Source: a virus
Virus record (IMG/VR): IMGVR_UViG_3300013132_005642
Span: 1-39,622 of that record
Reading direction: 5' to 3' (one strand)
DNA length: 39,622 bases
Shown here: in pieces, positions 1 to 21,216 of the stretch
How the letters are laid out: each line of letters opens with the position of its first letter
How positions within the stretch are numbered: position 1 is the first letter of the stretch
Translations under genes and position numbers: made by a program
Notes under the pieces: generated by a model
What the model saw: the letters and a program-made list of their open reading frames with translations, nothing else
The model's database searches: none
What the model was told of the DNA's origin: nothing

Positions 1-221
1 CCATTAGCAAGTTCTATGTTTTGTGCTTGAATTTGCTTTGTGATGTCCAGTCTTTTTCTCCTAGTTTCCTTGTCTTTCTCTGTTGCATCCTGCAAATATT
101 TTTTGAATTCATCATCACCTTCTTCTGCCACCATGAATTTTAGAATGCTCCCTTCTATGGCAATACTTCTCCTTTTGTAGAGATCCAAAAGACAATCTCT
201 CGTAATTTTATCTATCTTCAT
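1..221 (-). CDS. Hypothetical charged helical protein, C-terminus cut by window edge
   Basis: An open frame starts with ATG at 221 and runs off the left edge; about 73 codons are visible, beginning MKIDKITRDCLLDLYKRR. The visible part is rich in Lys, Arg, Glu and Asp with regularly spaced hydrophobic residues, so it is probably helical or coiled coil. It lies 6 bases downstream of the response regulator stop, so it is likely the third gene of the two-component operon. No family is recognised, and the length is unknown because the 3' end is missing. Confidence 0.6.
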   Translation of the reverse strand, partial: MKIDKITRDCLLDLYKRRSIAIEGSILKFMVAEEGDDEFKKYLQDATEKDKETRRKRLDITKQIQAQNIELAN

Positions 222-227
222 TATAGT

Positions 228-671
228 TTATTTGTATACCTTAAAGGGTGAGGTTCTATTTACAAATCCGGAATAATCTCTTCTGAATTCTTCCAGTCTT
301 GGTTCTATGTTATCGGACTTTATGATCCAGAATTGAGCTCCAGCTTTCACTGCTTTAGCCTGTTCTACTGAATCATTAGATGATGATATAATTCCAATTA
401 CGACGCCATCGCCATATTCGAAATTTATTTTTCTGACCAATTCAATGCCATCGAAGGAGGATCCGATGATATTAAGATCAACAAAAACACATTCTGGCTT
501 TTCTGCTTTCCCATTCATGATTTTTCTGAATAGTTCAGCAGCTTCATCTGAGCTTGATATACATTGGAGGCTCAAAGATATGTCCAGAAGACTACATGCG
601 TCTTCAAAAACAAGATGGAAGAGATCCTCGTCGTCAACTAATAGTATAGAGTCTATCATTTTTCGGTTCAT
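228..671 (-). CDS. Receiver-only response regulator (CheY-like)
   Basis: This is a single receiver domain of 147 residues with no output domain. The acidic pair D14-D15 (LVDDED), the phospho-acceptor D65 in FVDLN, the Ser at 97-98 in place of the switch Thr, and K118 in IIKSD are all present, so it should accept phosphate. It follows the histidine kinase with a 4-base ATGA-type overlap and is almost surely its partner. Lacking a DNA-binding domain, it probably acts by protein contact, like CheY or Spo0F. Whether the target is host or phage cannot be read from sequence. The receiver assignment is firm; partnership with the kinase is inferred from overlap. Confidence 0.9.
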   Translation of the reverse strand: MNRKMIDSILLVDDEDLFHLVFEDACSLLDISLSLQCISSSDEAAELFRKIMNGKAEKPECVFVDLNIIGSSFDGIELVRKINFEYGDGVVIGIISSSNDSVEQAKAVKAGAQFWIIKSDNIEPRLEEFRRDYSGFVNRTSPFKVYK

Positions 672-2251
672 TTTATTTTAATGGAGATTATGGTTCCACC
701 AGATTTAGATTTTTTACACGAAACATCGAATTCATGTTCATTTAAAATTGCAACGCAAATATTTAGGCCAAGTCCGGATCCACTTTCAACCTGATCTTTC
801 TTTCTAGCATATGGCTTAGAAAGATTATCAAAGTCTTCCTGCGTCATTCCCCTTCCATTATCCTCAACATTAATAACGTTTTCGGTTTTATATATCTTAA
901 CGCATTTCGTGGAATTGTCATTATATTTTAATCCATTTCTTATAAGATTGTCTATTGCTGTGCAGAATAGCGATTCATTAACTTGGGATATGCCGAGATC
1001 TTCTATAATTACCGAATCTGAATATGATGTTGAACGTAAATAGTCGGCGAGTATACTTTTCAAATTAAGCTCTTGAGTTTCCAGAATAGTGTCTTTTTTA
1101 ACAAGATTAGTAAACTCATAAACCCCTTTATAAACCTTTTGGGTGTGTGAAAGACCTTCTTTAAGAAGCCTAAAAGGCATATCAAGTTTATACTGCTTCA
1201 TCAGCTCAGGGGTAAGTCTTCTTTCCAGAGAAGAAATTCCTCTGGGAATATAAGTGTTGATTCCACTGTGCATATCATGTCTAAGAATCTTTGCTGCATG
1301 TTCAAGATACGCGTTCTTCTTTTCAATCTCCATTTGCTGATTAACACTTTGAGTAATGTCAGTAGCAATTTTCATAACACTGTAAGGTTTACCGTCTTCA
1401 CCAATAATAGGATTGTATGTTGCCCGTAGATAAACTAGCGTTCCGTCTTTTTTCTTTCTAACTATATCCCCACTAAAATAGTTACCGGCTTTTAAGGTTT
1501 TCCAAAAATCGGTGTAACTTTCTGACCCCTTTTCTTCATCAACAACAAAGATACTATGATGCTTTCCGACCAATTCTTCTGAGTTATATCCCATTGTCTT
1601 TAAGAAAGCAGAATTTGCGTACATGATTATGCCATCTAGGCTAAATTCAATAACAGCATTTGAACGATTGATAGCGTCCATTCTATTAGAAAGCTGTGAT
1701 TCTTTACCTTCTATGATGCTTATTAATTTGTTACTTTCTTTTACGGAATATGAAAATGAATAAAGAGACGAAAGTATTTGAGCAAAGTGAATCTCTTCAG
1801 TTTTCCAAGATCTTGTTGTTAAACTTTCAATACAAAAAACACCTATTATTCTTCCCCTGTGCCATATTGGAACATTCAGCATAGACTTTATTCCCAGAGG
1901 AATTAAGTATGAATTGAGAAAACATGAGGTAGCCGGATGGGATTCTGCATCGTCTGCAATAATGGGTTCGTCACCATTAAGATAAGAAAAATACTCTGGA
2001 TAGTCTCTTTCAAAAAGCTGCAGCCCCTCGTGAAAAAGACCTGTACTCTTAATGTAGATTTTATCACAAACTATTCCATCTCTATCGGAATTATAAGTCC
2101 AAATTGATGCTCGATCCACACCTAAAGAATCAACAACTTCTTTGGTTATTATCATGGATCCAGCGGCAACATTCCCTGTATAAAAAAGTTCATTTATGGA
2201 ATGTTTTACTAGTGTAGAAGTTAATTTTCTACAATATGAGGAATCATACAT
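668..2251 (-). CDS. Soluble GAF-PAS sensor histidine kinase
   Basis: The 527-residue protein has a GAF domain (about 20-170), a PAS domain with PAC motif (about 190-305), a dimerisation/phosphoacceptor helix with H325 in LRHDMHSGIN, and an HATPase domain. The N box (IDNLIRNGLKYND, N435/N439), G1 box (VEDNGRGM) and G2 box (GSGLGL, 491-496) are intact. There is no membrane segment, so it should sense a cytoplasmic ligand or redox state. The response regulator gene overlaps its 3' end by 4 bases. A GATATATA element sits 22 bases before the ATG. The kinase looks catalytically complete, which is unusual in a phage; the input signal is unknown. Confidence 0.93.
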   Translation of the reverse strand: MYDSSYCRKLTSTLVKHSINELFYTGNVAAGSMIITKEVVDSLGVDRASIWTYNSDRDGIVCDKIYIKSTGLFHEGLQLFERDYPEYFSYLNGDEPIIADDAESHPATSCFLNSYLIPLGIKSMLNVPIWHRGRIIGVFCIESLTTRSWKTEEIHFAQILSSLYSFSYSVKESNKLISIIEGKESQLSNRMDAINRSNAVIEFSLDGIIMYANSAFLKTMGYNSEELVGKHHSIFVVDEEKGSESYTDFWKTLKAGNYFSGDIVRKKKDGTLVYLRATYNPIIGEDGKPYSVMKIATDITQSVNQQMEIEKKNAYLEHAAKILRHDMHSGINTYIPRGISSLERRLTPELMKQYKLDMPFRLLKEGLSHTQKVYKGVYEFTNLVKKDTILETQELNLKSILADYLRSTSYSDSVIIEDLGISQVNESLFCTAIDNLIRNGLKYNDNSTKCVKIYKTENVINVEDNGRGMTQEDFDNLSKPYARKKDQVESGSGLGLNICVAILNEHEFDVSCKKSKSGGTIISIKIK

Positions 2252-2488: not shown

Positions 2489-2565
2489 TGGTAGCGGGGG
2501 TGGGGCTCGAACCCACGACCTCCAGGTTATGAGCCTGGCGAGCTGACCAACTGCTCTACCCCGCA
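2489..2565 (-). tRNA. tRNA-fMet-like (CAT), initiator type
   Basis: The cloverleaf is complete and CCA is encoded. The anticodon loop is CTCATAA. Three initiator marks are visible: an unpaired 1-72 position (U1 opposite U72; bacterial initiators have C1-A72), A11-U24 in the D stem, and strong similarity to initiator sequence in the D arm (GAGCAG..GGT..GCTCG). The anticodon stem reads CCAGG/CCTGG, so only two of the three usual consecutive G-C pairs are kept. It could instead be read as elongator Met, but a second CAT tRNA at 5430-5506 looks like the elongator. Confidence 0.85.
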
Positions 2566-2628
2566 ATGTTTATATTTTGAGTGCCAATACAAGTCCTGTT
2601 ATCTCGGATGGTTCTGGGCCGGGCCCGG

Positions 2629-2701
2629 AGCGGAAGACGGGACTCGAACCCGCAACCCCCGACTTGGAAGGACGGTGCTCTACCAATTGAGCTACTTCCG
2701 C
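2629..2701 (-). tRNA. tRNA-Gly (TCC)
   Basis: Acceptor GCGGAAG pairs with CTTCCGC, the loop is CTTCCAA and the T-loop TTCGAGT. The anticodon stem has one U-U mismatch (CCGTC/GTCGG). The discriminator is T and the following bases are CCG, so CCA must be added after transcription. A GC-only palindrome (CCGGGCCCGG) begins right at the 3' end. A boxA-like sequence lies 14 bases upstream of the 5' end. Confidence 0.9.
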
Positions 2702-2714
2702 TTATTCTTTCTAG

Positions 2715-2732
2715 CCAATATGTCAAAGAGCT
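2715..2732 (-). promoter_or_regulatory. boxA-like antitermination sequence before tRNA genes
   Basis: On the minus strand the sequence reads AGCTCTTTGACATATTGG, close to bacterial rRNA boxA (E. coli TGCTCTTTAACA). It lies between a TAnnTTTG promoter box and the tRNA-Gly/tRNA-fMet pair. A near-identical copy precedes tRNA-Trp at 7472-7489, so it is not a chance match. Confidence 0.6.
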
Positions 2733-2755
2733 TGTCAATTATTTGATTGACAGTG

Positions 2756-2763
2756 CAAACGTA
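2756..2763 (-). promoter_or_regulatory. Bacteroidota-type -7 box (TACGTTTG)
   Basis: TACGTTTG on the minus strand matches the TAnnTTTG -7 element of Bacteroidota primary-sigma promoters. It lies 55 bases upstream of tRNA-Gly with a boxA-like leader in between, as in a stable-RNA promoter region. Confidence 0.55.
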
Positions 2764-2793
2764 AAAAACTTTTTTGAAAGAAAAACATTTACA

Positions 2794-2823
2794 TAAAAAA
2801 ACCGGGATTTTTTAGGTCCCGGT
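2794..2823 (-). terminator. Rho-independent terminator after the acidic small gene
   Basis: A 7-base-pair stem (2801-2807 with 2817-2823, ACCGGGA/TCCCGGT) is followed on the minus strand by a run of T residues. It lies 24 bases beyond the stop of the gene at 2847-3149 and separates it from the tRNA promoter downstream. Confidence 0.75.
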
Positions 2824-2846
2824 CTTTCTGTTTATTTTTATTCGTG

Positions 2847-3149
2847 TCAAACGACGACGAAAAAAGAATATTCAGGATCCGGGCAATCATATCTTCTCAC
2901 CTCCCCTAGAGATTCACCTATCGTTATAGAGGTTCTAATGTCTTCATCACCATCGGGAATTAGAACATATAGGAAATCATCCCAAGGAGAATCTGATGCT
3001 GTGTCGAAATCATCAAATGGATCATTATCGTCATCCAAGTCATCGTCCCATGATTTAGAAGATGCTTTCCCAAGGGCTGCTCCAAACTCAAAAATGTCTC
3101 TCTCTTGAGATTTGAGATCCTTAAGATCGGTATAGATTTTAACTCCCAT
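2847..3149 (-). CDS. Acidic hypothetical protein with Asp-rich linker
   Basis: The 100-residue protein starts MGVKIYTDLKDLKSQ. Residues about 33-57 form a highly acidic linker of Asp, Ser and Trp, and the C-terminal 40 residues are more hydrophobic and may form a small beta domain (FLYVLIPDGDED). No family is recognised. It is a stand-alone unit: a terminator follows it and more than 130 bases separate it from the sulfotransferase gene upstream. An A-rich leader in place of a Shine-Dalgarno site precedes the ATG, as for most genes here. Confidence 0.65.
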   Translation of the reverse strand: MGVKIYTDLKDLKSQERDIFEFGAALGKASSKSWDDDLDDDNDPFDDFDTASDSPWDDFLYVLIPDGDEDIRTSITIGESLGEVRRYDCPDPEYSFFVVV

Positions 3150-3286
3150 TTTGTTTTTGTTGTTTTGGTTTTATCCGGTTTTTTTTTAAAAGTTTCAGAA
3201 GTATGTATCTAAAACTAAATTTTTCCCTCCCATTAATAAAAATATCAGTTTAGGGATCTCCAAAGGTGCATTTATTTTATGTGAGA

Positions 3287-3853
3287 TTATGTTTTTAACC
3301 CAGCTGAATAAAAATCCATTATTCTCTTCCTTTGTCTCTCGCTAATCTCCTCGTTCTTCTGCGTTTTGAAGTGATGATGATTTCCCAATCCGGTCATTCC
3401 CAGGTATTGTTCAATCGCTTGGGAATCAAAATAATTGAAAATCTTGATTCTGGAATCTATCCTCCCACTTTTATCAATCAGAAAATCCGAATTGGGAAGA
3501 TTGTGATTGTCAAACAGATGAGAATTTTCCTTGTTTAAAAATAGATCTAGGAATTCATCAAAGTTGCTGAAAAAACGAATGACTTCGGCTTTTCTTTCTC
3601 TGAGCCAAAAATATTCAGAGATTGTTCTCTCAACATCAGGTCTTAACACAGTAAATATCTTATCAGTCAAAACCCCGAGATCGTTCAGCTCCCTAAATGT
3701 GCAGTGCTGTGGGGTGTGACCATTTATGAAAACCGATCCGTTATCTGAGTAGAGAGACATTCTTTTGCCGCATTCTCCCATAAAAAATTCAACGGATGTC
3801 CCGCCGGATTTGGGAATATGTATAAAGGTGTATTCGTTATTAAATATTGGCAT
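3287..3853 (-). CDS. Sulfotransferase family protein
   Basis: The 188-residue protein opens with the PAPS 5'-phosphosulfate-binding loop IHIPKSGGTS (11-20) and has a matching 3'-phosphate site around VLRPDVERTISEYF (about 69-82) with the expected Arg and Ser. This is the family 2 / carbohydrate sulfotransferase signature. It would move sulfate from PAPS to an acceptor, probably a sugar of host or phage glycans. The size is small but complete in both cofactor motifs. An APS kinase at 34997-35572 in the same genome could supply PAPS. The acceptor is unknown. Galactose or heparan-type specificity cannot be told apart by eye. Confidence 0.8.
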   Translation of the reverse strand: MPIFNNEYTFIHIPKSGGTSVEFFMGECGKRMSLYSDNGSVFINGHTPQHCTFRELNDLGVLTDKIFTVLRPDVERTISEYFWLRERKAEVIRFFSNFDEFLDLFLNKENSHLFDNHNLPNSDFLIDKSGRIDSRIKIFNYFDSQAIEQYLGMTGLGNHHHFKTQKNEEISERQRKRIMDFYSAGLKT

Positions 3854-3878
3854 ATTTCATTCAGATATTTGAACCCCG

Positions 3879-3894
3879 GTGAATTTGAATTCAC
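3879..3894. promoter_or_regulatory. Inverted repeat upstream of the sulfotransferase gene
   Basis: GTGAATT and AATTCAC form a 16-base near-palindrome with a 2-base spacer, 26 bases before the sulfotransferase ATG. It may be an operator. No other regulatory signal stands out between 3854 and 3968. Confidence 0.3.
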
Positions 3895-3968
3895 AGTAAA
3901 TGTTCATTTCTATATATGCAGAAAATATAAGAGGTCTTTACGATCGCTTGAAAGCAATTTTGTTTTAG

Positions 3969-4030
3969 AGCAGTAGAGAGTCCATCTCCACATTGGCAAT
4001 GTGGTGTAATAGCCATTATACGACTACTGC
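3969..4030 (-). tRNA. T-arm-deficient tRNA-Gly (GCC)
   Basis: Only 62 bases long. Acceptor strands GCAGTAG and CTACTGC pair perfectly, the D arm (TCGTATAATGG) closely matches T4 tRNA-Gly, and the anticodon stem-loop CCACA-TTGCCAA-TGTGG is perfect. Between it and the 3' acceptor strand there are just 11 bases (AGATGGACTCT) where a variable loop plus 17-base T arm should be. The discriminator is T and CCA is not encoded. It is either a recent deletion or a functional armless tRNA; the intact acceptor pairing argues against long decay. Confidence 0.6.
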
Positions 4031-4035
4031 ATTAC

Positions 4036-4111
4036 TGGTAGTACCTAGAGGATTCGAACCTCCATCCCACGATCCGTAGTCGTGTGTTCTAATCCATTGA
4101 ACTAAGGGACC
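4036..4111 (-). tRNA. tRNA-Arg (ACG)
   Basis: Anticodon loop CTACGGA, T-loop TTCGAAT and encoded CCA. The acceptor GGTCCCT/AGGTACT has a C-U mismatch at 4-69 and a G-U pair at 1-72. It lies 5 bases upstream of the short tRNA-Gly, so the two are probably one transcript. The small ORF at 4089-4322 overlaps its 5' end by 23 bases. Confidence 0.88.
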
Positions 4112-4322
4112 ATCGTATTCTTTCCATTGGTTCCCGCGATGGTTTTTCCATGATCTGTTTTCCCCTGCCTTTACTGTTTCCTTCTGGGCCACAATATGCG
4201 TGGTAAACTCCAGCTCTTCTGCAGCAAATGTAGCAGTACTGATCTGTGTTTTTAAGAACCATCGTGTAGGTTCTGCTGTCTGAAGCCTCGCTGAGACTCT
4301 TTCTCTTTTTGTTTTTTCTCAT
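4089..4322 (-). CDS. Small basic Cys-rich hypothetical protein
   Basis: A 77-residue frame starting MRKNKKRKSLSEASDS. The middle carries a Cys cluster (CYICC then YCGPEGN) that could be a minimal zinc-binding knuckle, flanked by basic segments. It would suit a nucleic-acid-binding phage protein. The last 23 bases overlap the 5' end of tRNA-Arg(ACG), so either the gene ends earlier in vivo or transcripts are processed competitively. A 6-base-pair hairpin (TTAGGT/ACCTAA) lies just before the ATG. No family is recognised; moderate confidence that it is real. Confidence 0.45.
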   Translation of the reverse strand: MRKNKKRKSLSEASDSRTYTMVLKNTDQYCYICCRRAGVYHAYCGPEGNSKGRGKQIMEKPSREPMERIRWSLSSMD

Positions 4323-4381
4323 TGGAATTAGGTTTGTTTACCTAATGCACATATTCTGTTTTTTTCATTTCTTATCTTTTT

Positions 4382-4457
4382 TGGTAGTTCCACCCAGACT
4401 CGAACTGGGATTAGAAGTTTAGGAAACTCCCGTTCTATCCTGTTGAACTATGGAACC
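4382..4457 (-). tRNA. tRNA-Arg (CCT)
   Basis: A clean cloverleaf with loop TTCCTAA, T-loop TTCGAGT and encoded CCA. The acceptor GGTTCCA/TGGAACT has a G-U pair at 1-72, as in the other Arg tRNA nearby. It reads the rare AGG codon. Confidence 0.9.
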
Positions 4458-4561
4458 ATCTTATTTTCTTCCCTCCGCCAGAAATAACTCCTCGTTTCCC
4501 CTTAGCGGGATGATATTATATCCTATATTCCCAGATATTGGAAAGAATTTCTATATTAAAT

Positions 4562-5272
4562 TTAATTTTCAAAATGATGATGACATATTATAATTTTATG
4601 TCCAAAAAACATTTTTTCATCTTTTCTTAATGAAGATCTACTAAACAGTCCGTAATAATATGAGTGATAGGATAATTTACATAATAATAATTTATTGCTA
4701 CCCAATGCAAAAGGTACTAATGTAGGTTTATGCTCTAAAAATTTTACGGTTCCTTCTAAAACACCTAGCCAATGAGGATGTAAAATATCATCAATAAATA
4801 CAATGCCTTCATTATTAATCATTGTATTTGCGAGTTTTAAGTCTGATATTGTATGTTCAGCCGTGTGTCCGCCATCTATTGAAATTAGTTTAAAGCATCC
4901 AGCATATTTTTCTAATTCCTTGCATAATTTAATATCAGTTGAATCAAAATTTAGTATTTTAGTATTTTTACCTTTATGAACGTCATATTTAACTAAATTA
5001 TCCTTAAATATCTCTAAATTCCCATATCCTGAAGAATCTATGTTTAAATGTTGATTCGAAAAAATATCAATAGCAATGCTAGTTTCTTTTTCATCAACCA
5101 AGCTGTTTAGCAAACAATAAAATTTACCATGATGTATACCTATTTCTAAACAACCACCATTCTTGTTAATTTCGGCTTTATCTAAAAGATTAAGAATATT
5201 ATATAATTCATTATTACACCAGCCGTGAATATTTTTAAATCCATCATTATAATATTGATCAATTAATTTCAT
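4562..5272 (-). CDS. Class I SAM-dependent methyltransferase (Methyltransf_24-like)
   Basis: The 236-residue protein has motif I CLEIGIHHGKF (about 40-50), an acidic residue ending the next strand (AIDIF), and the post-motif LISIDGGHT followed by IVFIDDI. This is the arrangement of Methyltransf_24 enzymes linked to glycan and cephalosporin-type biosynthesis. It would methylate a small molecule or sugar using SAM. It stands alone between tRNA clusters. Its DNA is clearly more A+T-rich than its neighbours, which suggests a separate origin. The acceptor is not predictable. Confidence 0.75.
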   Translation of the reverse strand: MKLIDQYYNDGFKNIHGWCNNELYNILNLLDKAEINKNGGCLEIGIHHGKFYCLLNSLVDEKETSIAIDIFSNQHLNIDSSGYGNLEIFKDNLVKYDVHKGKNTKILNFDSTDIKLCKELEKYAGCFKLISIDGGHTAEHTISDLKLANTMINNEGIVFIDDILHPHWLGVLEGTVKFLEHKPTLVPFALGSNKLLLCKLSYHSYYYGLFSRSSLRKDEKMFFGHKIIICHHHFEN

Positions 5273-5347
5273 AACTTACATCTTTACATTTATAGTACGC
5301 CTTTTAAGGGAGTTTCTAGGTTTAACTGCGTACATACTATTTGATTT

Positions 5348-5425
5348 TGGTAGTCCTGGAGGGATTCGAACCCCCGACCTTGACCTTGTAAGGATCCTGC
5401 TCTGAACCAACTGAGCTACAAGACT
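5348..5425 (-). tRNA. tRNA-Val (TAC)
   Basis: Acceptor AGTCTTG/CAGGACT, loop CTTACAA, T-loop TTCGAAT and encoded CCA. The anticodon stem has one mismatch at its outer pair. It is the first gene of a dense tRNA run that continues to 5943-6013 on the complementary order. Confidence 0.9.
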
Positions 5426-5429
5426 ATTT

Positions 5430-5506
5430 TGGTAGCGAGAGGGGGGCTTGAACCCCTGACCTCCGGGTTATGAATCCGACGCTCTAGCCGGCTGAGCTAC
5501 CTCGCC
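5430..5506 (-). tRNA. tRNA-Met (CAT), elongator type
   Basis: Loop TTCATAA, acceptor GGCGAGG/TCTCGCT with a closed G-U pair at 1-72, T-loop TTCAAGC and encoded CCA. A closed 1-72 pair and GCTC/GAGC D stem (C11-G24) mark an elongator. An Ile tRNA with modified CAT anticodon cannot be excluded by eye. Confidence 0.85.
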
Positions 5507-5539
5507 ATAATGATCAGAGAAAGGTTTCAAAGAATCTTT

Positions 5540-5568
5540 TTAGTGCTCTACCACTGAGCTAACGTCCC
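5540..5568 (-). pseudogene. 5' half of a tRNA (acceptor strand and D arm only)
   Basis: GGGACGT, TA, then a perfect D arm (GCTC AGTGGTA GAGC) is followed by A+T-rich sequence with no anticodon arm containing U33, no T arm and no 3' acceptor strand complementary to ACGTCCC. It is the leftover of a tRNA gene whose 3' half was lost next to tRNA-Met. Confidence 0.6.
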
Positions 5569-5583
5569 AGATAATTTTCTTAT

Positions 5584-5673
5584 TGGTGCGCCCGGCAGGA
5601 TTCGAACCTGCGACTCCCGAGTTAAAAGCTCGGTACTCTAAGGGTTTCCCTAAACCAGCTGAGTTACGAACGC
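5584..5673 (-). tRNA. tRNA-Lys (TTT) with a hairpin in an enlarged D loop
   Basis: All arms pair: acceptor GCGTTCG/CGGGCGC, anticodon arm CCGAG-CTTTTAA-CTCGG, T arm GCAGG-TTCGAAT-CCTGC, and CCA is encoded. The D stem ACTC/GAGT encloses a 22-base loop instead of the usual 8-10. The extra part contains AGGG-AAA-CCCT, a self-complementary mini-hairpin. The rest is intact, so the gene looks functional with an insertion. Confidence 0.82.
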
Positions 5674-5676
5674 ATT

Positions 5677-5761
5677 TGGTGGGAGCAGCAGGACTCGAAC
5701 CTGCGAAGCCGTAAGGCGGGGGATTTACAGTCCCCTGCAATTGCCGCTATGCGATACTCCC
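5677..5761 (-). tRNA. tRNA-Tyr (GTA), first copy
   Basis: Class II tRNA with loop CTGTAAA and a long variable arm (GCCTTACGGC). Acceptor GGGAGTA/TGCTCCC with G1-C72, the bacterial Tyr identity pair, A73 and encoded CCA. Confidence 0.9.
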
Positions 5762-5768
5762 AAAATTG

Positions 5769-5851
5769 TCGGCCAGGAAGGATTCGAACCTTCACCCCCC
5801 GAAGGGACCAGTTTTACAGACTGGCGAGCGGACCAATTGCTCAACTGACCG
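5769..5851 (-). tRNA. tRNA-Tyr (GTA), second copy with C1-G72
   Basis: Loop CTGTAAA and a class II variable arm (CCCTTCGGGG). The acceptor is CGGTCAG/CTGGCCG, so the first pair is C1-G72, the archaeal/eukaryotic rather than bacterial Tyr pair. A73 is followed by CAA, so CCA is not encoded. It is 8 bases from the first Tyr gene yet differs from it throughout. Confidence 0.82.
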
Positions 5852-5859
5852 AATTTTTG

Positions 5860-5933
5860 CTCCCCGGGCAGGACCCGAACCTGCGACTCCATGATTAACA
5901 GTCATGTGTTCTAACCAACTGAACTACCGAGGA
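5860..5933 (-). tRNA. tRNA-Asn (GTT)
   Basis: Acceptor TCCTCGG/CCGGGGA, loop CTGTTAA, T-loop TTCGGGT, discriminator G. The bases after the discriminator are CAA, so CCA must be added by an enzyme. Confidence 0.9.
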
Positions 5934-5942
5934 TTGTGTGGG

Positions 5943-6013
5943 AGCTGGTGGAGGGAGTCAAACCCCCGTACCTGGTTTTGCAGACCAGTGCCTAATCCCT
6001 CGGCCACACCAGC
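5943..6013 (-). tRNA. tRNA-Cys (GCA)
   Basis: Acceptor GCTGGTG/CACCAGC, loop CTGCAAA, T-loop TTTGACT. The discriminator T is followed by CCC, so CCA is not encoded. It is the most upstream gene of the contiguous minus-strand tRNA run. Confidence 0.88.
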
Positions 6014-6133
6014 ATTATTTTTAAGTTCCTCTAAGTACCTTAGATTCCTCTTCAATTTCTTTCGTTCTAAGGTGTTTTCGAAGTCTTTAAGGAACGATCC
6101 CGGGATTACTATGCCCTTTCTCTTGGAATTGAT

Positions 6134-6382
6134 CTAGAAGCTCGTCTTGAGTGAATAACCAATCCGTAATTCCATCAGTCCACTGATCCAGCCATAGCCC
6201 CAGCTTTTCTTTCCTATGATGACCGATTGAAGAACGTTAGGATGTCTTGATTTAATGGTCTTTCCCTTGAATTGCCCATCATCATACATCCTAAATCCCT
6301 CTCTCGAATCTGGTCCATTTGGATCATATTCTACGTCTACGGGAGATCCGCAGAAATCCAATAGTCCCTTTCTTTTTGACAT
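6134..6382 (-). CDS. Hypothetical protein, probably part of a larger broken gene
   Basis: An 82-residue frame starting MSKRKGLLDFCGSPVDVEYD with no recognised family. Two observations suggest it is the middle of a longer gene. First, the same frame stays open upstream to about 6492 without an ATG, encoding a basic helix (RIGTRHQRRLRKYSEG). The ATG at 6498 would join that frame if the C run at 6492-6496 were one base longer. Second, after the TAG at 6134 the frame stays open for about 40 codons of helical Lys/Glu-rich sequence up to tRNA-Cys. It could be decaying, mis-sequenced, or simply a short gene. Confidence 0.5.
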   Translation of the reverse strand: MSKRKGLLDFCGSPVDVEYDPNGPDSREGFRMYDDGQFKGKTIKSRHPNVLQSVIIGKKSWGYGWISGLMELRIGYSLKTSF

Positions 6383-6528
6383 CAGAAAGAAGTTGAATTT
6401 TTCGTGGAAGCCCTCTGAGTATTTTCTGAGTCTTCTCTGATGTCTTGTTCCTATCCTTCCGGATATTTCTCTTAGCTTCTCTTGCTTACTGCCCCCATGG
6501 TGATTGTTTTTTATTTGTTTTTAAATAG

Positions 6529-6605
6529 TGGAAGCTATGGCGGACGATGCCATCTGATTTTCTGAATGCAAATCAGACGCTCTCGGCCAGCTGAGCTACG
6601 TCTCC
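6529..6605 (-). pseudogene. Degenerate tRNA-Ala (TGC)
   Basis: The D arm (GTAGCTCAGCTGGCCGAGAGC) and anticodon arm (TCTGA-TTTGCAT-TCAGA) are good. The acceptor GGAGACG/AGCTTCC has mismatches at 5-68 and 7-66, and the T loop is ATCGTCC, lacking T54 and A58 of the consensus. CCA is not encoded. It is probably a decaying tRNA, though a divergent functional one is possible. Confidence 0.55.
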
Positions 6606-6612
6606 AAATTAG

Positions 6613-6686
6613 TAGTCGGAGCGGGACTTGAACCCACGACCCCCGCAGTATCAGTGCGGTGCTCTAACCAACTGAGCTACCCGACT
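6613..6686 (-). tRNA. tRNA-Ile (GAT)
   Basis: Acceptor AGTCGGG/TCCGACT, loop CTGATAC, T-loop TTCAAGT, A73. It is followed by CTA in place of CCA. The stop codon of the GIY-YIG endonuclease gene overlaps its first two bases. Confidence 0.9.
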
Positions 6687-7338
6687 ATTTTTTTGATGTT
6701 CTACCCCTTTTCCATCCTAAATTCAAATATTCTTCCAGCCGATCCTTTTTTATTTTCTTATCGAAATTTCCGTCGTTTATCCATGCCGTATTATATTGAG
6801 AATTTAATTCGCCCCTTTGATTTATTGAATTGGCAGAACCTATCTTTAATTTAGAATCCTCTTTGTGGGTCTTCCCGGTCCAATCTATGGCTTTTAGAAT
6901 TTTTTCCCTATATTCTGTATTCTTCCATAATTTTTTTAAGGTACTTGATGCAATATCTTTTCTTCTTTTATTATTTTCTGGAATTTTCCAATATACCTCA
7001 TTTAGATGTTTACATTTATCACCTCCTATAGAAACACCAGTGCAGCACCATCCTTCTCCTCCCAGTTTTATATTCATGCAGAGCGGGTCTTTCAGTAGAT
7101 TCTCGTTAATGATATTTCTTTCTCTTTCTACTAAAGCTTCCCTGGCGGTATGAAATTCAATGATATCTTTTCTGTGGGCATCTTTGCCGTGCTTCTTGAT
7201 AGAATTTTTAATTATCTTTCCCCCTCCCATATAACCATCTTCTAAGTTACTAGTGGAGTGCATTCCAATATAGTATCTGTTATTCTTAAGACATGTTATC
7301 TTATAGATGTAATGATACTTGTGTGGTTTTCTTGCCAT
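6685..7338 (-). CDS. GIY-YIG homing endonuclease with NUMOD3 motif
   Basis: The 217-residue protein begins with a GIY-YIG nuclease domain: YIYKITC (10-16) and YYIG (22-25), then conserved Arg and Glu positions (HRKDIIEF, EALVERERN). Around 150-185 is a NUMOD3-type DNA-binding motif (GKTHKEDSKLKIG), and the C-terminus carries the AWINDG..LGWKRGR pattern of Seg-like enzymes. It would cut DNA at a specific site and spread its own gene. It sits inside the tRNA array with its stop overlapping tRNA-Ile, a typical free-standing homing site. A GATATATA element lies 19 bases upstream. Confidence 0.88.
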   Translation of the reverse strand: MARKPHKYHYIYKITCLKNNRYYIGMHSTSNLEDGYMGGGKIIKNSIKKHGKDAHRKDIIEFHTAREALVERERNIINENLLKDPLCMNIKLGGEGWCCTGVSIGGDKCKHLNEVYWKIPENNKRRKDIASSTLKKLWKNTEYREKILKAIDWTGKTHKEDSKLKIGSANSINQRGELNSQYNTAWINDGNFDKKIKKDRLEEYLNLGWKRGRTSKK

Positions 7339-7357
7339 ATTCGTACGTTACTTAGAT

Positions 7358-7365
7358 TATATATC
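7358..7365 (-). promoter_or_regulatory. GATATATA element before the homing endonuclease
   Basis: A perfect 8-mer 19 bases before the ATG at 7338, the same motif as found upstream of many other genes in the window. Confidence 0.45.
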
Positions 7366-7391
7366 CAAGTAACGGTACGAAATAGGGGCTG

Positions 7392-7462
7392 CACGAGTGG
7401 AGGGATTCGAACCCCCATCGACGGTTTTGGAGACCGGTATGCTACCATTGCACCACACTCGT
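7392..7462 (-). tRNA. tRNA-Trp (CCA)
   Basis: Acceptor ACGAGTG/CACTCGT, loop CTCCAAA, T-loop TTCGAAT, and G73, the Trp discriminator. The following bases are CAG, so CCA is not encoded. A boxA-like leader begins 10 bases upstream of its 5' end. Confidence 0.9.
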
Positions 7463-7471
7463 GTTTAGGAA

Positions 7472-7489
7472 CCAATATGTCAAAGAACT
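7472..7489 (-). promoter_or_regulatory. boxA-like antitermination sequence, second copy
   Basis: AGTTCTTTGACATATTGG on the minus strand, differing at one position from the copy at 2715-2732. It lies between tRNA-Phe and tRNA-Trp, directly 5' of the latter. This fits Nus-factor antitermination of stable RNA transcripts. Confidence 0.6.
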
Positions 7490-7516
7490 TATATGCACTT
7501 TTTCGTGCATGTTCTG

Positions 7517-7589
7517 TGGTGCCTCCCGGTTTCGAACCGGGCTCTCAGGATCTTCAGTCCTGCGCTTTCACCAGATTAGCTTAGGCACC
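7517..7589 (-). tRNA. tRNA-Phe (GAA)
   Basis: Acceptor GGTGCCT/AGGCACC, loop CTGAAGA, T arm CCCGG-TTCGAAA-CCGGG, A73. It is followed by CAG, so CCA is not encoded. The D stem has one mismatch (GCTA/AAGC). Confidence 0.88.
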
Positions 7590-9450: not shown

Positions 9451-9996
9451 TTAAGAGATTTTTTCTAATCTTTTCATAGTGAGATTCAAAATGGATAGGG
9501 ATTCCATTAAACCTCCCCTATCATCCAGGAAAATATTTGCATACACCTTAGAGTGGTTACCAAAAGGGAGTTCAACTGGGTTCTTATTAACCGAGTCCAC
9601 TCTGATCCCTTTTTCCGTGAGATATTGGGTCATATACTCGAATCTGTGGGGTTTTCCCGCGGTGAATATGACAAAGTGCGCTCCTATGGCTTGAGCTTTT
9701 ATAATGAGATCTATCACCTTCTGAAATTCGAAATCATTAAAGCTCCAGGGATGAACAGTGTCATCAAAGTCGCAAGCTATGATGATCTTTCCATGCTTTT
9801 TCCATTCTTTTTCCAAACGATCCACGTATCTCCATGATTCGAGATGGATGGATTCAAATGGACCGATTGGCAGCCAAATTTCTTCTCTATATTTTGCTAC
9901 AGTATCAGCCAGAGCTTCCTCCGCCTTTTGTGATTCCGATTTTTTCCAGAATTGCCACCATTTTCTTTTCCCGCCCACGGGAATTACAAATTTCAT
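9451..9996 (-). CDS. HAD-superfamily phosphatase-like protein
   Basis: 181 residues. HAD motif I is IIACDFDDT (72-80; D76 and D78), motif II is VIFTAG (Thr about 114), and motif III/IV is ANIFLDDRGG near residue 160. The N-terminal 70 residues are basic and helical and have no clear counterpart. It should hydrolyse a phosphate ester, perhaps a nucleotide or sugar phosphate. Its ATG overlaps the stop of the PRPP synthetase fragment, so the two are translated together. The cap domain is small, which fits a 5'-nucleotidase or polynucleotide-phosphatase-like subgroup. Confidence 0.75.
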   Translation of the reverse strand: MKFVIPVGGKRKWWQFWKKSESQKAEEALADTVAKYREEIWLPIGPFESIHLESWRYVDRLEKEWKKHGKIIIACDFDDTVHPWSFNDFEFQKVIDLIIKAQAIGAHFVIFTAGKPHRFEYMTQYLTEKGIRVDSVNKNPVELPFGNHSKVYANIFLDDRGGLMESLSILNLTMKRLEKIS

Positions 9997-10379
9997 TACG
10001 CGATTCTCTGTTTCTGTAAGTGTGGATCCAAAAGGGTGACTTTTTTGAAATTGCAGCTGTTAATAATCTGGGCCAAGACTTTAACGGAGAGTGGTTCGCC
10101 CTTCGACATAACCCGATCCTGACGGGCATAGGGAAGATATGGCATGTAGAGGCTGATCTCCTTGTGGCCTGCTCCCTCCAGTGCATCATTTGACATAACC
10201 ACCTTCATGAGATCTGCTGAATTATTTACTCGATGTACGATTGTGACCGGTTCGTAGGGAAAAAATTCCTTTAACTTAACATGGACTTCTCCGCCAGAGA
10301 ATATGAATGACTCGTGCTTGATCTCGCTGGTGCCCCAGCTGAATGGTTTAAAATTGGGGTCTAAGTTGAGGTATAACAT
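9996..10379 (-). CDS. Truncated ribose-phosphate pyrophosphokinase (N-terminal half)
   Basis: 127 residues match the first half of PRPP synthetase: FSGGEVHVKL, a nucleotide-binding segment, and the flexible-loop region YMPYLPYARQDRVMSKGEPL, ending at LLDPH. The family is about 300 residues. The C-terminal half with the PRPP-binding loop (VVxPDxGGxxR) is missing, and the frame stops 7 codons after DPH where the HAD gene begins. It cannot be a normal synthetase. It may be a relic or a regulator that mixes with host Prs. A TATATTTG host-type box lies 21 bases before the ATG. Confidence 0.72.
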   Translation of the reverse strand: MLYLNLDPNFKPFSWGTSEIKHESFIFSGGEVHVKLKEFFPYEPVTIVHRVNNSADLMKVVMSNDALEGAGHKEISLYMPYLPYARQDRVMSKGEPLSVKVLAQIINSCNFKKVTLLDPHLQKQRIA

Positions 10380-11600: not shown

Positions 11601-11621
11601 CCTGTATAAATCAGTTTAGTT

Positions 11622-11948
11622 TTAATTCATGCTGGATTTAATAAATTCCAGAATTTGTCCTTTGGATTTAGCACCTACAAATTTATCCTTTACCGATCCA
11701 CCGTTAAACATAATCACTGTGGGGACATTTTTAATTGAAAACCTTTCCAGAACATCTTTTATCTCTGCACTATCAACATCAATCTTAGCAAACTTAACAC
11801 CTGGCGTCTCTTGGCTCTTTTCAGCCTCCTCCAGTTGCGGCAGGAGAACTTTACAAGGTCCACACCACGAAGCAGAGAAATCCACTAAAACGTTTTTATT
11901 TTCGCTGATTAGCAGCTCGAATTGATCCTTACTTTCTATTTTTTGCAT
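11622..11948 (-). CDS. trxA: Thioredoxin
   Basis: 108 residues, the full length of a classic thioredoxin. The redox motif WCGPC is at 28-32 and the cis-Pro loop NVPT near 74. Buried Asp (VDFSASWCGPCK) and the FNGG turn are present. It would reduce disulfides, depending on host thioredoxin reductase. Phage thioredoxins can feed ribonucleotide reductase or act as polymerase processivity factors; neither partner is in the window. It is last in an operon with two small proteins upstream (11962-12183, 12170-12340). Confidence 0.92.
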   Translation of the reverse strand: MQKIESKDQFELLISENKNVLVDFSASWCGPCKVLLPQLEEAEKSQETPGVKFAKIDVDSAEIKDVLERFSIKNVPTVIMFNGGSVKDKFVGAKSKGQILEFIKSSMN

Positions 11949-11961
11949 ATCTATTATTTAT

Positions 11962-12183
11962 TTATTGAGGATCTGTTAATTCCTCCTTATTCTCGGAACT
12001 AGCCTCGACATTCTCAGAAATAATCTCTGGGGTTTCAGCGATCACCTCATTTTGCTGTGCAGCCTGCATGTTTTTAAGAAGCTCAGTTATCTTTTGAATG
12101 TCCTTCATTGAAAACTGTTTCTTCTTAGGAGCTTGGTATTTTACTTTTTTACCATTTTTCTTTCTTACTCTACTCTTTGGCAT
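11962..12183 (-). CDS. Small two-part protein, basic N-terminus and acidic C-terminus
   Basis: 73 residues: MPKSRVRKKNGKKVKYQAPK is strongly basic, the middle (MKDIQKITELLKNMQAAQQ) is a predicted helix, and the tail is Glu-rich. The layout fits a nucleic-acid-binding or scaffold-like protein. Its start overlaps the end of a small membrane-protein gene by 14 bases, and thioredoxin follows 13 bases later. No family is recognised. Confidence 0.6.
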   Translation of the reverse strand: MPKSRVRKKNGKKVKYQAPKKKQFSMKDIQKITELLKNMQAAQQNEVIAETPEIISENVEASSENKEELTDPQ

Positions 12184-15467: not shown

Positions 15468-15544
15468 TGGTGATCCGGGAGGGATTCGAACCCCCGACCC
15501 ACAGCTTAGAAGGCTGTTGCTCTATCCAACTGAGCTACCGGACC
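15468..15544 (-). tRNA. tRNA-Arg (TCT)
   Basis: Acceptor GGTCCGG/CCGGATC, loop CTTCTAA, T arm GGGGG-TTCGAAT-CCCTC and encoded CCA. It is isolated from the main tRNA cluster, between a tagged gene and Thg1, and reads AGA, a codon frequent in this window. Confidence 0.92.
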
Positions 15545-15593: not shown

Positions 15594-16514
15594 TTATTCA
15601 TTGAATTTCATTTTTGATAAGATAAAGCTTCTATCCTGAGTGAAGATAGGAGTTTCAACAGAGACCCAAAATGATCTCTCAAAAAGATCCACCTTCGAGG
15701 AATCACCTAAAAGTTCTACTGCCTGCCTGGCCATTACTGCTTCACATGAATCTGACAGTCCTATAGCTTCCCCCTCTCCCTTAGTTCCTTTTTCTCTTTT
15801 GTAGAGTACACTTGCTTTAACTATAGCTGCTCCTCTCTTAAATCGAGTTGGATAGTCATTCCAATTAACTCCTTTTTCAGAGAACATCATTTCCTGCATT
15901 TCAGACCCGGATTTGCCCTGAAGTTGCTTGTGGGAAAACATAGACTGAGCCGCCATAGAAACGCTGTTTCTTGTGGCATCCTGCTGTCTCCATATAAAAT
16001 AGTTCGCAACCTCTTCGGCTTCTGGAATAATAAAAACGCGAGAATCGAAGGTGGCGAGCTTCTTGTTTAGGACCTCACTTGATATTGTCATATCATATGC
16101 AGTAGGTCCATGTTCTAAGGGGTCCACATTTATGTTCCAATATTCCCTCTGCATTCTAAGCTGGTTGAATTTTGCTGTTGCTAGAGAAGCCGAGATGGAG
16201 CATATCTTCTGAAGGTTGTTATCGAACCACGGAGATGTGTCCAGCGTATCATAATCCGTGACCAGTATGCTGATTTCATCGGATTGGACATATCCCAATT
16301 TTGCTCCCTGAATATTCTCGCAGAGAAATTTAGTGGTTTCGTCCATATCGTCAGAAAGTCCGGTATCGTAAGGTCTTTTCAACCCCTTGGTATACGAGTG
16401 AAAAGCTTTCCCGTCAATTCTCAAGAGAATATTTGTTCTCCTCGGAATGTTGATTCTATATCTGTCCTCGTAATAGGACTTCATCCTATCGCCTAATGAA
16501 TCTTTAGTTGCCAT
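15594..16514 (-). CDS. Thg1-like tRNA 3'-5' polymerase (tRNA-His guanylyltransferase family)
   Basis: 306 residues. LLRIDGKAFHSYTKGLKRPYD (D34) and KLGYVQSDEISIL (D79, E80) are the metal-binding motifs of the Thg1 palm domain. The following residues (ASLATAKFNQL) continue the family pattern. Thg1-type enzymes add nucleotides to tRNA 5' ends in the 3'-5' direction. Bacterial and phage members mainly repair 5'-truncated tRNAs. No tRNA-His gene is in the window, so a repair role for phage or host tRNAs is the better guess. It precedes tRNA-Arg(TCT) and follows the AAA ATPase gene by 3 bases. Confidence 0.88.
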   Translation of the reverse strand: MATKDSLGDRMKSYYEDRYRINIPRRTNILLRIDGKAFHSYTKGLKRPYDTGLSDDMDETTKFLCENIQGAKLGYVQSDEISILVTDYDTLDTSPWFDNNLQKICSISASLATAKFNQLRMQREYWNINVDPLEHGPTAYDMTISSEVLNKKLATFDSRVFIIPEAEEVANYFIWRQQDATRNSVSMAAQSMFSHKQLQGKSGSEMQEMMFSEKGVNWNDYPTRFKRGAAIVKASVLYKREKGTKGEGEAIGLSDSCEAVMARQAVELLGDSSKVDLFERSFWVSVETPIFTQDRSFILSKMKFNE

Positions 16515-20049: not shown

Positions 20050-21216
20050 CTAAAATCCTTTATTTAAAATTTCAGCGAAAATTTCAGTTTCCCTCCGGGT
20101 CATCTCCTCACCCAGTTCCTTCCCAGTTAACCCAAGGCCCAGAAGATCTTGTCCCTTGACAGAGATATCATAGTTCAAAAAAGCTTTAACCATCTTTTGG
20201 TCCATGCCGGTCTTCTCTGAAAAATCTCTAATCGATGGTATGGTGTCTCTCAGCTTATATTGTCTCTTTTTAAGCTCATATGCTGTGCCTACGGACAACT
20301 TTTGGAATGAGACAAGAAGAGATATGAATTGCACCTCATCGATCGTATACGTGAGCTTATTGAGCTTTTTTGAAAGCTCAGCAGGATCATTATCACGGAG
20401 GAGAAGTGAAACGCAGCAGAGAGGGACGGAGCTATCGGAATTATTGGGATTAACCTCGAGATCAGGAAAGATCTGAGACATAAATCCAAGATCCCAAAGC
20501 ATATTTATAGCTCCATCCACCGACTTGGCAGAGGTAAGGATCTTTAAGAACTCGTCCCTGATTCTTTCTCGGGAAACCCCCGAGATGTCATTGTTTCTCT
20601 CCAGAGATCTACGGGTTTTATCATCTATAGCATTTCCCATTCTGGACGCGAACCTTACGACCCTGAGTTTTCTGAGAGGATCTTCGGCTAATCTTTGGTC
20701 CGGATCCCCAACGGTTCTGACTATTCCCGATTCCAAATCGGAAAGACCTCCAACTAAATCTACAACCTCCCTTCTTTCTATATCATAGAAGAGAGCATTA
20801 ATTGTTAGATCCCGACGTTTAACATCGGTCTCTATATTCGTGAATTCGACACCTTCAGGCCTTCTTCCTGATCCTAAATCTTTTCTAAATGTGGCTACTT
20901 CTATTCCATCAGGAAATTCCGGAGTGATTACGACAACCACTCCGAATGCTTTTCCAACCTCCATCACCTTATATTTTCCCTTCAGCATCTCAATTACTTC
21001 ATCCGGTGTGGCTTCGGTTGCAACATCGAAATCCTTGGGACTCTTCCCGAGCACCGCATCCCTGACCGCACCTCCCACGAGATAGAGACTCTTTCCGCTA
21101 TTTTTAAAAATTTGGGAAAGGTCCATTATATCCTTGGGTAGATCTATATTCATGAGAATTCTAGATTCTGAGATCATCCGAGAAAATTCCTTGAATGTTT
21201 TTTTAATTACCCCCAT
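20050..21216 (-). CDS. cca: CCA-adding tRNA nucleotidyltransferase, N-terminally tagged
   Basis: 388 residues. LYLVGGAVRD (44-53) and DFD (D62, D64) are the catalytic motifs, followed by GSGRRPEG, KRRDLTINAL, DLVGGLSDLESG and DPLRKLRVVRF. All are typical of class II tRNA nucleotidyltransferase / poly(A) polymerase head and neck. It repairs or adds 3' CCA, needed because tRNA-Gly, -Tyr2, -Asn, -Cys, -Ile, -Trp and -Phe here lack encoded CCA. The start GVIKKTFKEFSRMISES looks like the shared tag with ISE-S cleavage-like site, which would be odd for a cytosolic enzyme unless it is packaged. It overlaps the upstream gene by 10 bases. Confidence 0.9.
   Translation of the reverse strand: MGVIKKTFKEFSRMISESRILMNIDLPKDIMDLSQIFKNSGKSLYLVGGAVRDAVLGKSPKDFDVATEATPDEVIEMLKGKYKVMEVGKAFGVVVVITPEFPDGIEVATFRKDLGSGRRPEGVEFTNIETDVKRRDLTINALFYDIERREVVDLVGGLSDLESGIVRTVGDPDQRLAEDPLRKLRVVRFASRMGNAIDDKTRRSLERNNDISGVSRERIRDEFLKILTSAKSVDGAINMLWDLGFMSQIFPDLEVNPNNSDSSVPLCCVSLLLRDNDPAELSKKLNKLTYTIDEVQFISLLVSFQKLSVGTAYELKKRQYKLRDTIPSIRDFSEKTGMDQKMVKAFLNYDISVKGQDLLGLGLTGKELGEEMTRRETEIFAEILNKGF

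Follow-up and report, generated by a model that had tools for sequence, protein, structure and literature searches.

A phage-encoded two-component system and its conserved, predicted membrane protein partner in a neighbourhood rich in endolysin genes

The kinase, the regulator and the membrane protein

The viral record IMGVR_UViG_3300013132_005642, which was analysed over its whole length of 39,622 nucleotides (39.6 kb; here called the window), carries an operon of three genes on the minus strand. The genes code for a sensor histidine kinase (HK, 2251 to 668), a response regulator (RR, 659 to 228) and a third protein which we call X (221 to 3). An earlier note on this DNA had described the first two as a complete two-component system carried by a phage with all catalytic residues present, and this is borne out for both proteins; it had overlooked the third gene. 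The edge of the window cuts X after its first 73 codons (3-221, minus strand), which cover the N-terminal domain and the start of a coiled coil. The complete protein of 190 amino acids is found in an independent second contig (L001, positions 11608-12180), which is 99.9% identical to the window over 11.8 kb and also holds the gene following X.

HK is a soluble protein of 527 amino acids (668-2251, minus strand) with the domain order GAF-PAS-DHp-HATPase_c. The GAF domain occupies residues 34-163 (positions 1763-2152; PF01590, E 5.6e-16), the PAS domain residues 204-301 (1349-1642; PF08447/PF13426, E 3.6e-14) and the catalytic HATPase_c domain residues 428-526 (674-970; PF02518, E 1.3e-15). The H-box, RHDMHSGIN, with the phosphoacceptor His325 lies at residues 324-332 (1256-1282). 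The Pfam HisKA models gave no match to it, and it was therefore assigned by its position and by its invariance; the motif is found in 164 of 164 kinases. In an alignment of 43 kinases His325, N435 and N439 of the N-box, D464-x-G466-x-G468 of the G1 box and G493-L-G495 of the G2 box are invariant, so HK has the boxes expected of a sensor histidine kinase. The copy in L001 is 99% identical and further relatives are 69-36% identical. HK has no obvious membrane helix and should therefore sense something inside the cell.

The sensor part of the kinase is variable. Kinase lengths range from 293 to 728 amino acids across the loci, and all of the 43 kinases tested carry HATPase_c, while a PAS match is present in 32 and a GAF match in 17. 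When L027 is compared with L044 (other pairs behave alike), X and RR are 99-100% identical and the kinase core 100% identical while the sensor differs by about 112 amino acids, roughly the size of one PAS domain. The inputs of the kinase are exchangeable: sensor domains come and go while RR and X stay fixed. Against cultured phages the matches of HK are confined to bacterial-type PAS regions.

RR is a receiver domain with neither an output domain nor a DNA-binding domain (PF00072, Response_reg, E 2.7e-8). The residues D9, D10, D61, S92 and K114, i.e., the acidic pair, the phosphorylatable aspartate (Asp61, positions 477-479, minus strand), the Ser/Thr and the lysine of a receiver fold, are invariant in 33 aligned regulators. 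Fold matches reach E 1.5e-8, starting from a model of modest confidence, and the best are 6xvu (a Deinococcus bacteriophytochrome regulator), 4zyl and Rcp1; by sequence the closest natural regulator with a solved structure is 3ilh. The earlier note had read RR as 147 amino acids (228-671), with an ATG at 671 which overlaps the kinase stop by 4 bases. In L001 the kinase stop is TAA instead of TGA, which abolishes this upstream ATG and disturbs nothing else, and the relatives start at the inner ATG (659 in the window), 8 bases past the stop. RR is therefore 143 amino acids long (228-659, minus strand), and the proposed overlap has to be given up. At other loci the gap between HK and RR is usually 1-19 bases, with a small overlap in some.

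X is a protein of 182-245 amino acids. It begins with a small N-terminal domain, which is helical, continues as a single very long helix (a coiled coil) and ends in a hairpin of two hydrophobic helices, which sits after a helical region of 100-150 amino acids. The second helix of the hairpin is nearly invariant (GILLTNAFSIVGTIMG.KY). Hydropathy gives two transmembrane helices, and an AlphaFold2 model shows the long helix and the hairpin (pLDDT, the confidence score of the model, 83.8). Insertion into the membrane is thus predicted, probably with both termini in the cytoplasm, which is consistent with the lysines found at both ends of the hairpin. X is weakly similar to phrog_1544, a family of unknown function; since phrog_1544 found no match in 12 named large phages it was no help in placing X. 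A comparison with viral predicted structures gave a single uncharacterised homologue.

Conservation, synteny and neighbouring genes

A scan of viral contigs with RR gave 539 pattern-matching stretches, of which 525 encode a relative; 80 of these were kept, with identities of 76-99%, on contigs that reach 430 kb. When the N-terminal domain of X was used in the same way, 438 candidates came up, of which the best 80 were kept. The carriers are many uncultured, mostly large freshwater phages. Large carrier contigs hold a T4-like terminase, and its nearest named relatives are from uncultured huge phages, Bacteroidota phages (Tenacibaculum PTm1, Flavobacterium immuto, Prevotella Lak) and Sphingomonas phage PAU. 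Conservation of the pair in related phages, which the earlier note had suggested searching for, is therefore found, as the operon is kept in many phages. All three genes are under purifying selection, with median ratios of nonsynonymous to synonymous substitution rates (dN/dS) of 0.04 for RR, 0.11 for HK and 0.13 for X; between divergent phages RR is 77-81% identical with a dN/dS of about 0.04.

The order of the genes was determined for 74 non-redundant loci. X is the direct neighbour of RR in 73 of them, and in 56 the two genes overlap by 4 bases or 1 base. HK lies upstream in 70 loci and is directly adjacent in 62, as expected for a cognate pair; 11 loci have two kinases. Two of the 4 loci with no upstream HK are contigs which begin at RR. 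The junction between HK and RR tolerates insertions (GIY-YIG endonuclease, patatin, YceI), and RR and X stay joined there. HK is missing between the endolysin and RR in L241, L249 and L258, and one record of 242 kb has RR and X and no HATPase_c domain anywhere. RR and X thus form a tighter unit than HK and RR, an indication that RR acts on X. The earlier note had left the choice between a host and a phage target; as RR is inseparable from a downstream membrane protein beside lysis genes, a phage-encoded lysis target is the more likely of the two.

Endolysin genes are common around the module. The families found are GH19 with a peptidoglycan-binding domain, M15, the phrog_33083 type and Phage_lysozyme, and in L001 the gene directly after X is a relative of the phrog_33083-type endolysins. 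With these four classes scored, 40 of the 74 loci have an endolysin within three genes. Of the 415 genes at most three positions away from the module, 48 code for endolysins, compared with 4 of 821 further out (Fisher p 1.7e-19, a value which overstates independence because the loci are related by descent), and the enrichment is highest immediately beside the module. Twelve of the large records hold the main GH19 endolysin, and in 10 of these it is found at most 5 kb from HK, on either strand and on either side, so the linkage survives rearrangement. In one locus (L228) an M15 endolysin gene is followed by a Phage_holin_4_1-like gene (E 2.7e-4), a short transmembrane gene, HK, RR, a transmembrane gene and X. 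It should be noted that 16 terminase-bearing contigs have no RR. Because 15 of these also lack the usual full-length GH19 endolysin of the module, and that of the 16th lies 233 bases from the end of the contig, the fragments probably just do not contain the lysis region.

A single bacterial copy was found. It lies among ordinary bacterial neighbours in a contig (L120) of a Bacteroidetes metagenome-assembled genome, and this same genome was the only carrier in each of three samples of bacterial (Bacteroidota) genomes (1 of 395, 1 of 390 and 1 of 241). The order is HK, RR and a third gene, the first 85 residues of which align with X; HisKA and HATPase_c then replace the membrane hairpin, which makes the product a second histidine kinase. 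The N-terminal part of X thus stands on a different output in L120, as expected for a signal-receiving domain, and appears to be a transferable signal-receiving module. In the trees, which are unrooted and partly weak, L120 nests among the phage sequences: its HK is sister to that of L207 (support 97/98), and its RR groups with those of L207 and L219 (96/96). Transfer from phage to bacterium is therefore more likely than the reverse. That the phages took the operon from Bacteroidota was considered and dropped, since the sole bacterial copy nests inside the phage trees.

Several other genes occur in the module. A GIY-YIG homing endonuclease-like gene lies exactly between HK and RR in L015, L047, L080 and related loci. 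A patatin-like phospholipase, a possible extra envelope-lysis enzyme, has the same position in two loci (L237:4600-5592 and L238:4591-5565). A gene for a cytosolic protein of the YceI family (isoprenoid-binding) stands directly beside HK in 8 of the 74 loci (among them L213:2770-3294, L217:5030-5554, L236, L265 and L274) and may relate to the sensed signal. Between tandem kinases, L016 (6165-6752) and 12 relatives encode a secreted coiled-coil protein with no Pfam match, which is spanin-like by anatomy only. Pairs of RR and X with no kinase are seen in L283 (G008) and in L241, L249 and L258; RR may here be served by host kinases or be active when unphosphorylated.

Elsewhere in the window there are 15 tRNA genes (at 2489-7589 and 15468-15544), a tRNA-His guanylyltransferase (15594-16514) and a tRNA nucleotidyltransferase of the CCA-adding/poly(A) polymerase type (20050-21216), which together are an extensive phage-owned tRNA maturation set. 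A GIY-YIG-type gene is found at 6685-7338. Ribose-phosphate pyrophosphokinase is represented by an N-terminal piece of 127 amino acids (9996-10379), which may belong to a split or truncated enzyme.

Proposed lysis control and the alternatives

The anatomy of X and the linkage to endolysins suggest that the operon is a phage-specific two-component system which controls host lysis, the regulator gating a membrane lysis protein; we consider this rather probable. X would be a holin, an antiholin or another lysis regulator. As expected of a holin, which would have one to three transmembrane helices, it is a small predicted membrane protein with two hydrophobic helices, and its gene is often close to an endolysin gene; lethal permeabilisation of the membrane by X is a putative function.

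The model proposes that the cytoplasmic HK reads an intracellular signal through its exchangeable GAF and PAS domains, autophosphorylates on the histidine of RHDMHSGIN and hands the phosphate to Asp61 of RR. RR, phosphorylated or not, would dock on the N-terminal part of X and alter the state of its coiled coil and inner-membrane hairpin, and X would then permit or block the release of the neighbouring endolysin. RR could be a trigger or a brake, and the signal and the contacts are likewise putative. In its most far-reaching form, which we put forward tentatively, the operon is a lysis clock driven by a phosphorelay and would be the first two-component system of a virus to have a dedicated membrane effector: phosphorylated RR would directly gate a holin-like hairpin, lysis would follow the metabolic state of the host, and sensors would be exchanged between phages to suit hosts and habitats.

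Several observations weigh against control of lysis, the common descent of the loci mentioned above being one of them. No recognised endolysin lies within three genes in 34 of the 74 loci (some of which are cut by contig ends, and only the four classes were scored). Comparison with Pfam, PHROGs and NCBIfam did not place X in any known holin family, and the search of its fold against solved structures gave nothing significant. Neither RR nor X has a match among 50,697 cultured or deposited phage records. The statement of the earlier note that phages very rarely carry both partners thus holds for cultured phages (RR), and it does not hold for the uncultured group. Finally, other holin-like genes are present in some loci.

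The last point bears on a variant of lysis control in which X is a kinase-controlled antiholin or lysis inhibitor that delays lysis, with an effect like that of T4 lysis inhibition, and another protein makes the hole. This would agree with the Phage_holin_4_1-like gene of L228 and with a cluster of two-helix proteins found beside X in several loci. A long cytoplasmic coiled coil is also unusual in a holin, which counts for the antiholin. However, in most loci no other holin candidate was recognised close to the module; such genes are difficult to recognise, and no genome-wide search was made. We regard this variant as possible, yet somewhat doubtful.

RR could instead act on a host protein, like CheY or the Rcp1-type regulators, so that the proximity to lysis genes would reflect only a late-gene or cargo region. 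The nearest folds of RR are indeed single-domain regulators of the bacteriophytochrome type, and dnaK and other unrelated genes occur in some neighbourhoods. Rewiring of the host in this way does not explain why the adjacency of RR and X is near-absolute and persists where HK is lost, nor why the endolysin enrichment peaks directly beside the module, and we find it unlikely. It is still less probable that X serves against competitors as a membrane effector (superinfection exclusion or an abortive pore), which the kinase would set off when a second infection occurs or the host collapses. Control of a membrane protein by a stress-type sensor would fit this role, and exchange of sensors is compatible with changing triggers, but there is no convincing PADLOC match, only a weak one of the coiled coil (2.2e-4), and the linkage is to endolysins and not to defence genes. 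Contamination with host DNA or a chance host insertion, which the abundance of kinases and regulators in bacteria might suggest and which the earlier note had named as a possible refutation, is refuted by the recurrence of the window copy in L001, by the conservation of the operon in many large viral contigs with a T4-like terminase, and by its near-absence from the sampled bacteria.

Known systems and the possible meaning of the operon

The bacterial systems with single-domain regulators (the Rcp1/DrRR bacteriophytochrome regulators, CheY and the DivK type) likewise have a receiver of about 143 amino acids with no output domain and a soluble PAS/GAF kinase. The present system differs in being encoded by phages, in having X, a membrane-hairpin protein, as a fixed third partner, and in an H-box unmatched by Pfam HisKA.

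Phage phiCDHM1 also carries a histidine kinase homologue, AgrC, among its agr genes, and no response regulator was found in its genome (PMC3901668). These genes are a recent host acquisition in one phage and belong to a Gram-positive quorum system, with no link to a lysis protein shown. A receiver fold is known from jumbo phages as the divergent cREC domain, which is reported to accompany NAD/ADP-ribose enzymes and never histidine kinases (PMC7824862); here a classical receiver is paired with a kinase.

Lysis inhibition in T4 and ICP1 (RI/T and ArrA/TeaA) is an example of phages which sense conditions and adjust lysis through membrane proteins; it uses antiholins only, which contact the holin directly, and neither a kinase and regulator nor a phosphorelay takes part (PMC7182436). 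X matches no family of RI-like or RIII-like antiholins such as act on the T holin in T4-type lysis inhibition. In phage quorum sensing, VqmA-Qtip of VP882 and arbitrium, a chemical state which the phage senses sets the timing of host killing (PMC7790227). These are one-component transcriptional lysis-lysogeny switches of temperate phages with no two-component pair. No phage two-component system tied to lysis was found in the open-licence papers searched, and a report elsewhere may have escaped us.

The operon suggests that these phages monitor the condition of the cell and time lysis accordingly. If this is true, holin accumulation and superinfection are not the only means by which lytic phages set the moment of lysis: they can also run a full post-translational sense-and-respond circuit coupled to the machinery which bursts the cell. 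With three small genes it would become directly testable whether virulent phages use the physiology of the host to set the time of lysis, and how they sense it. The loci would also provide a set of natural sensors in which the inputs are swapped and the output stays fixed.
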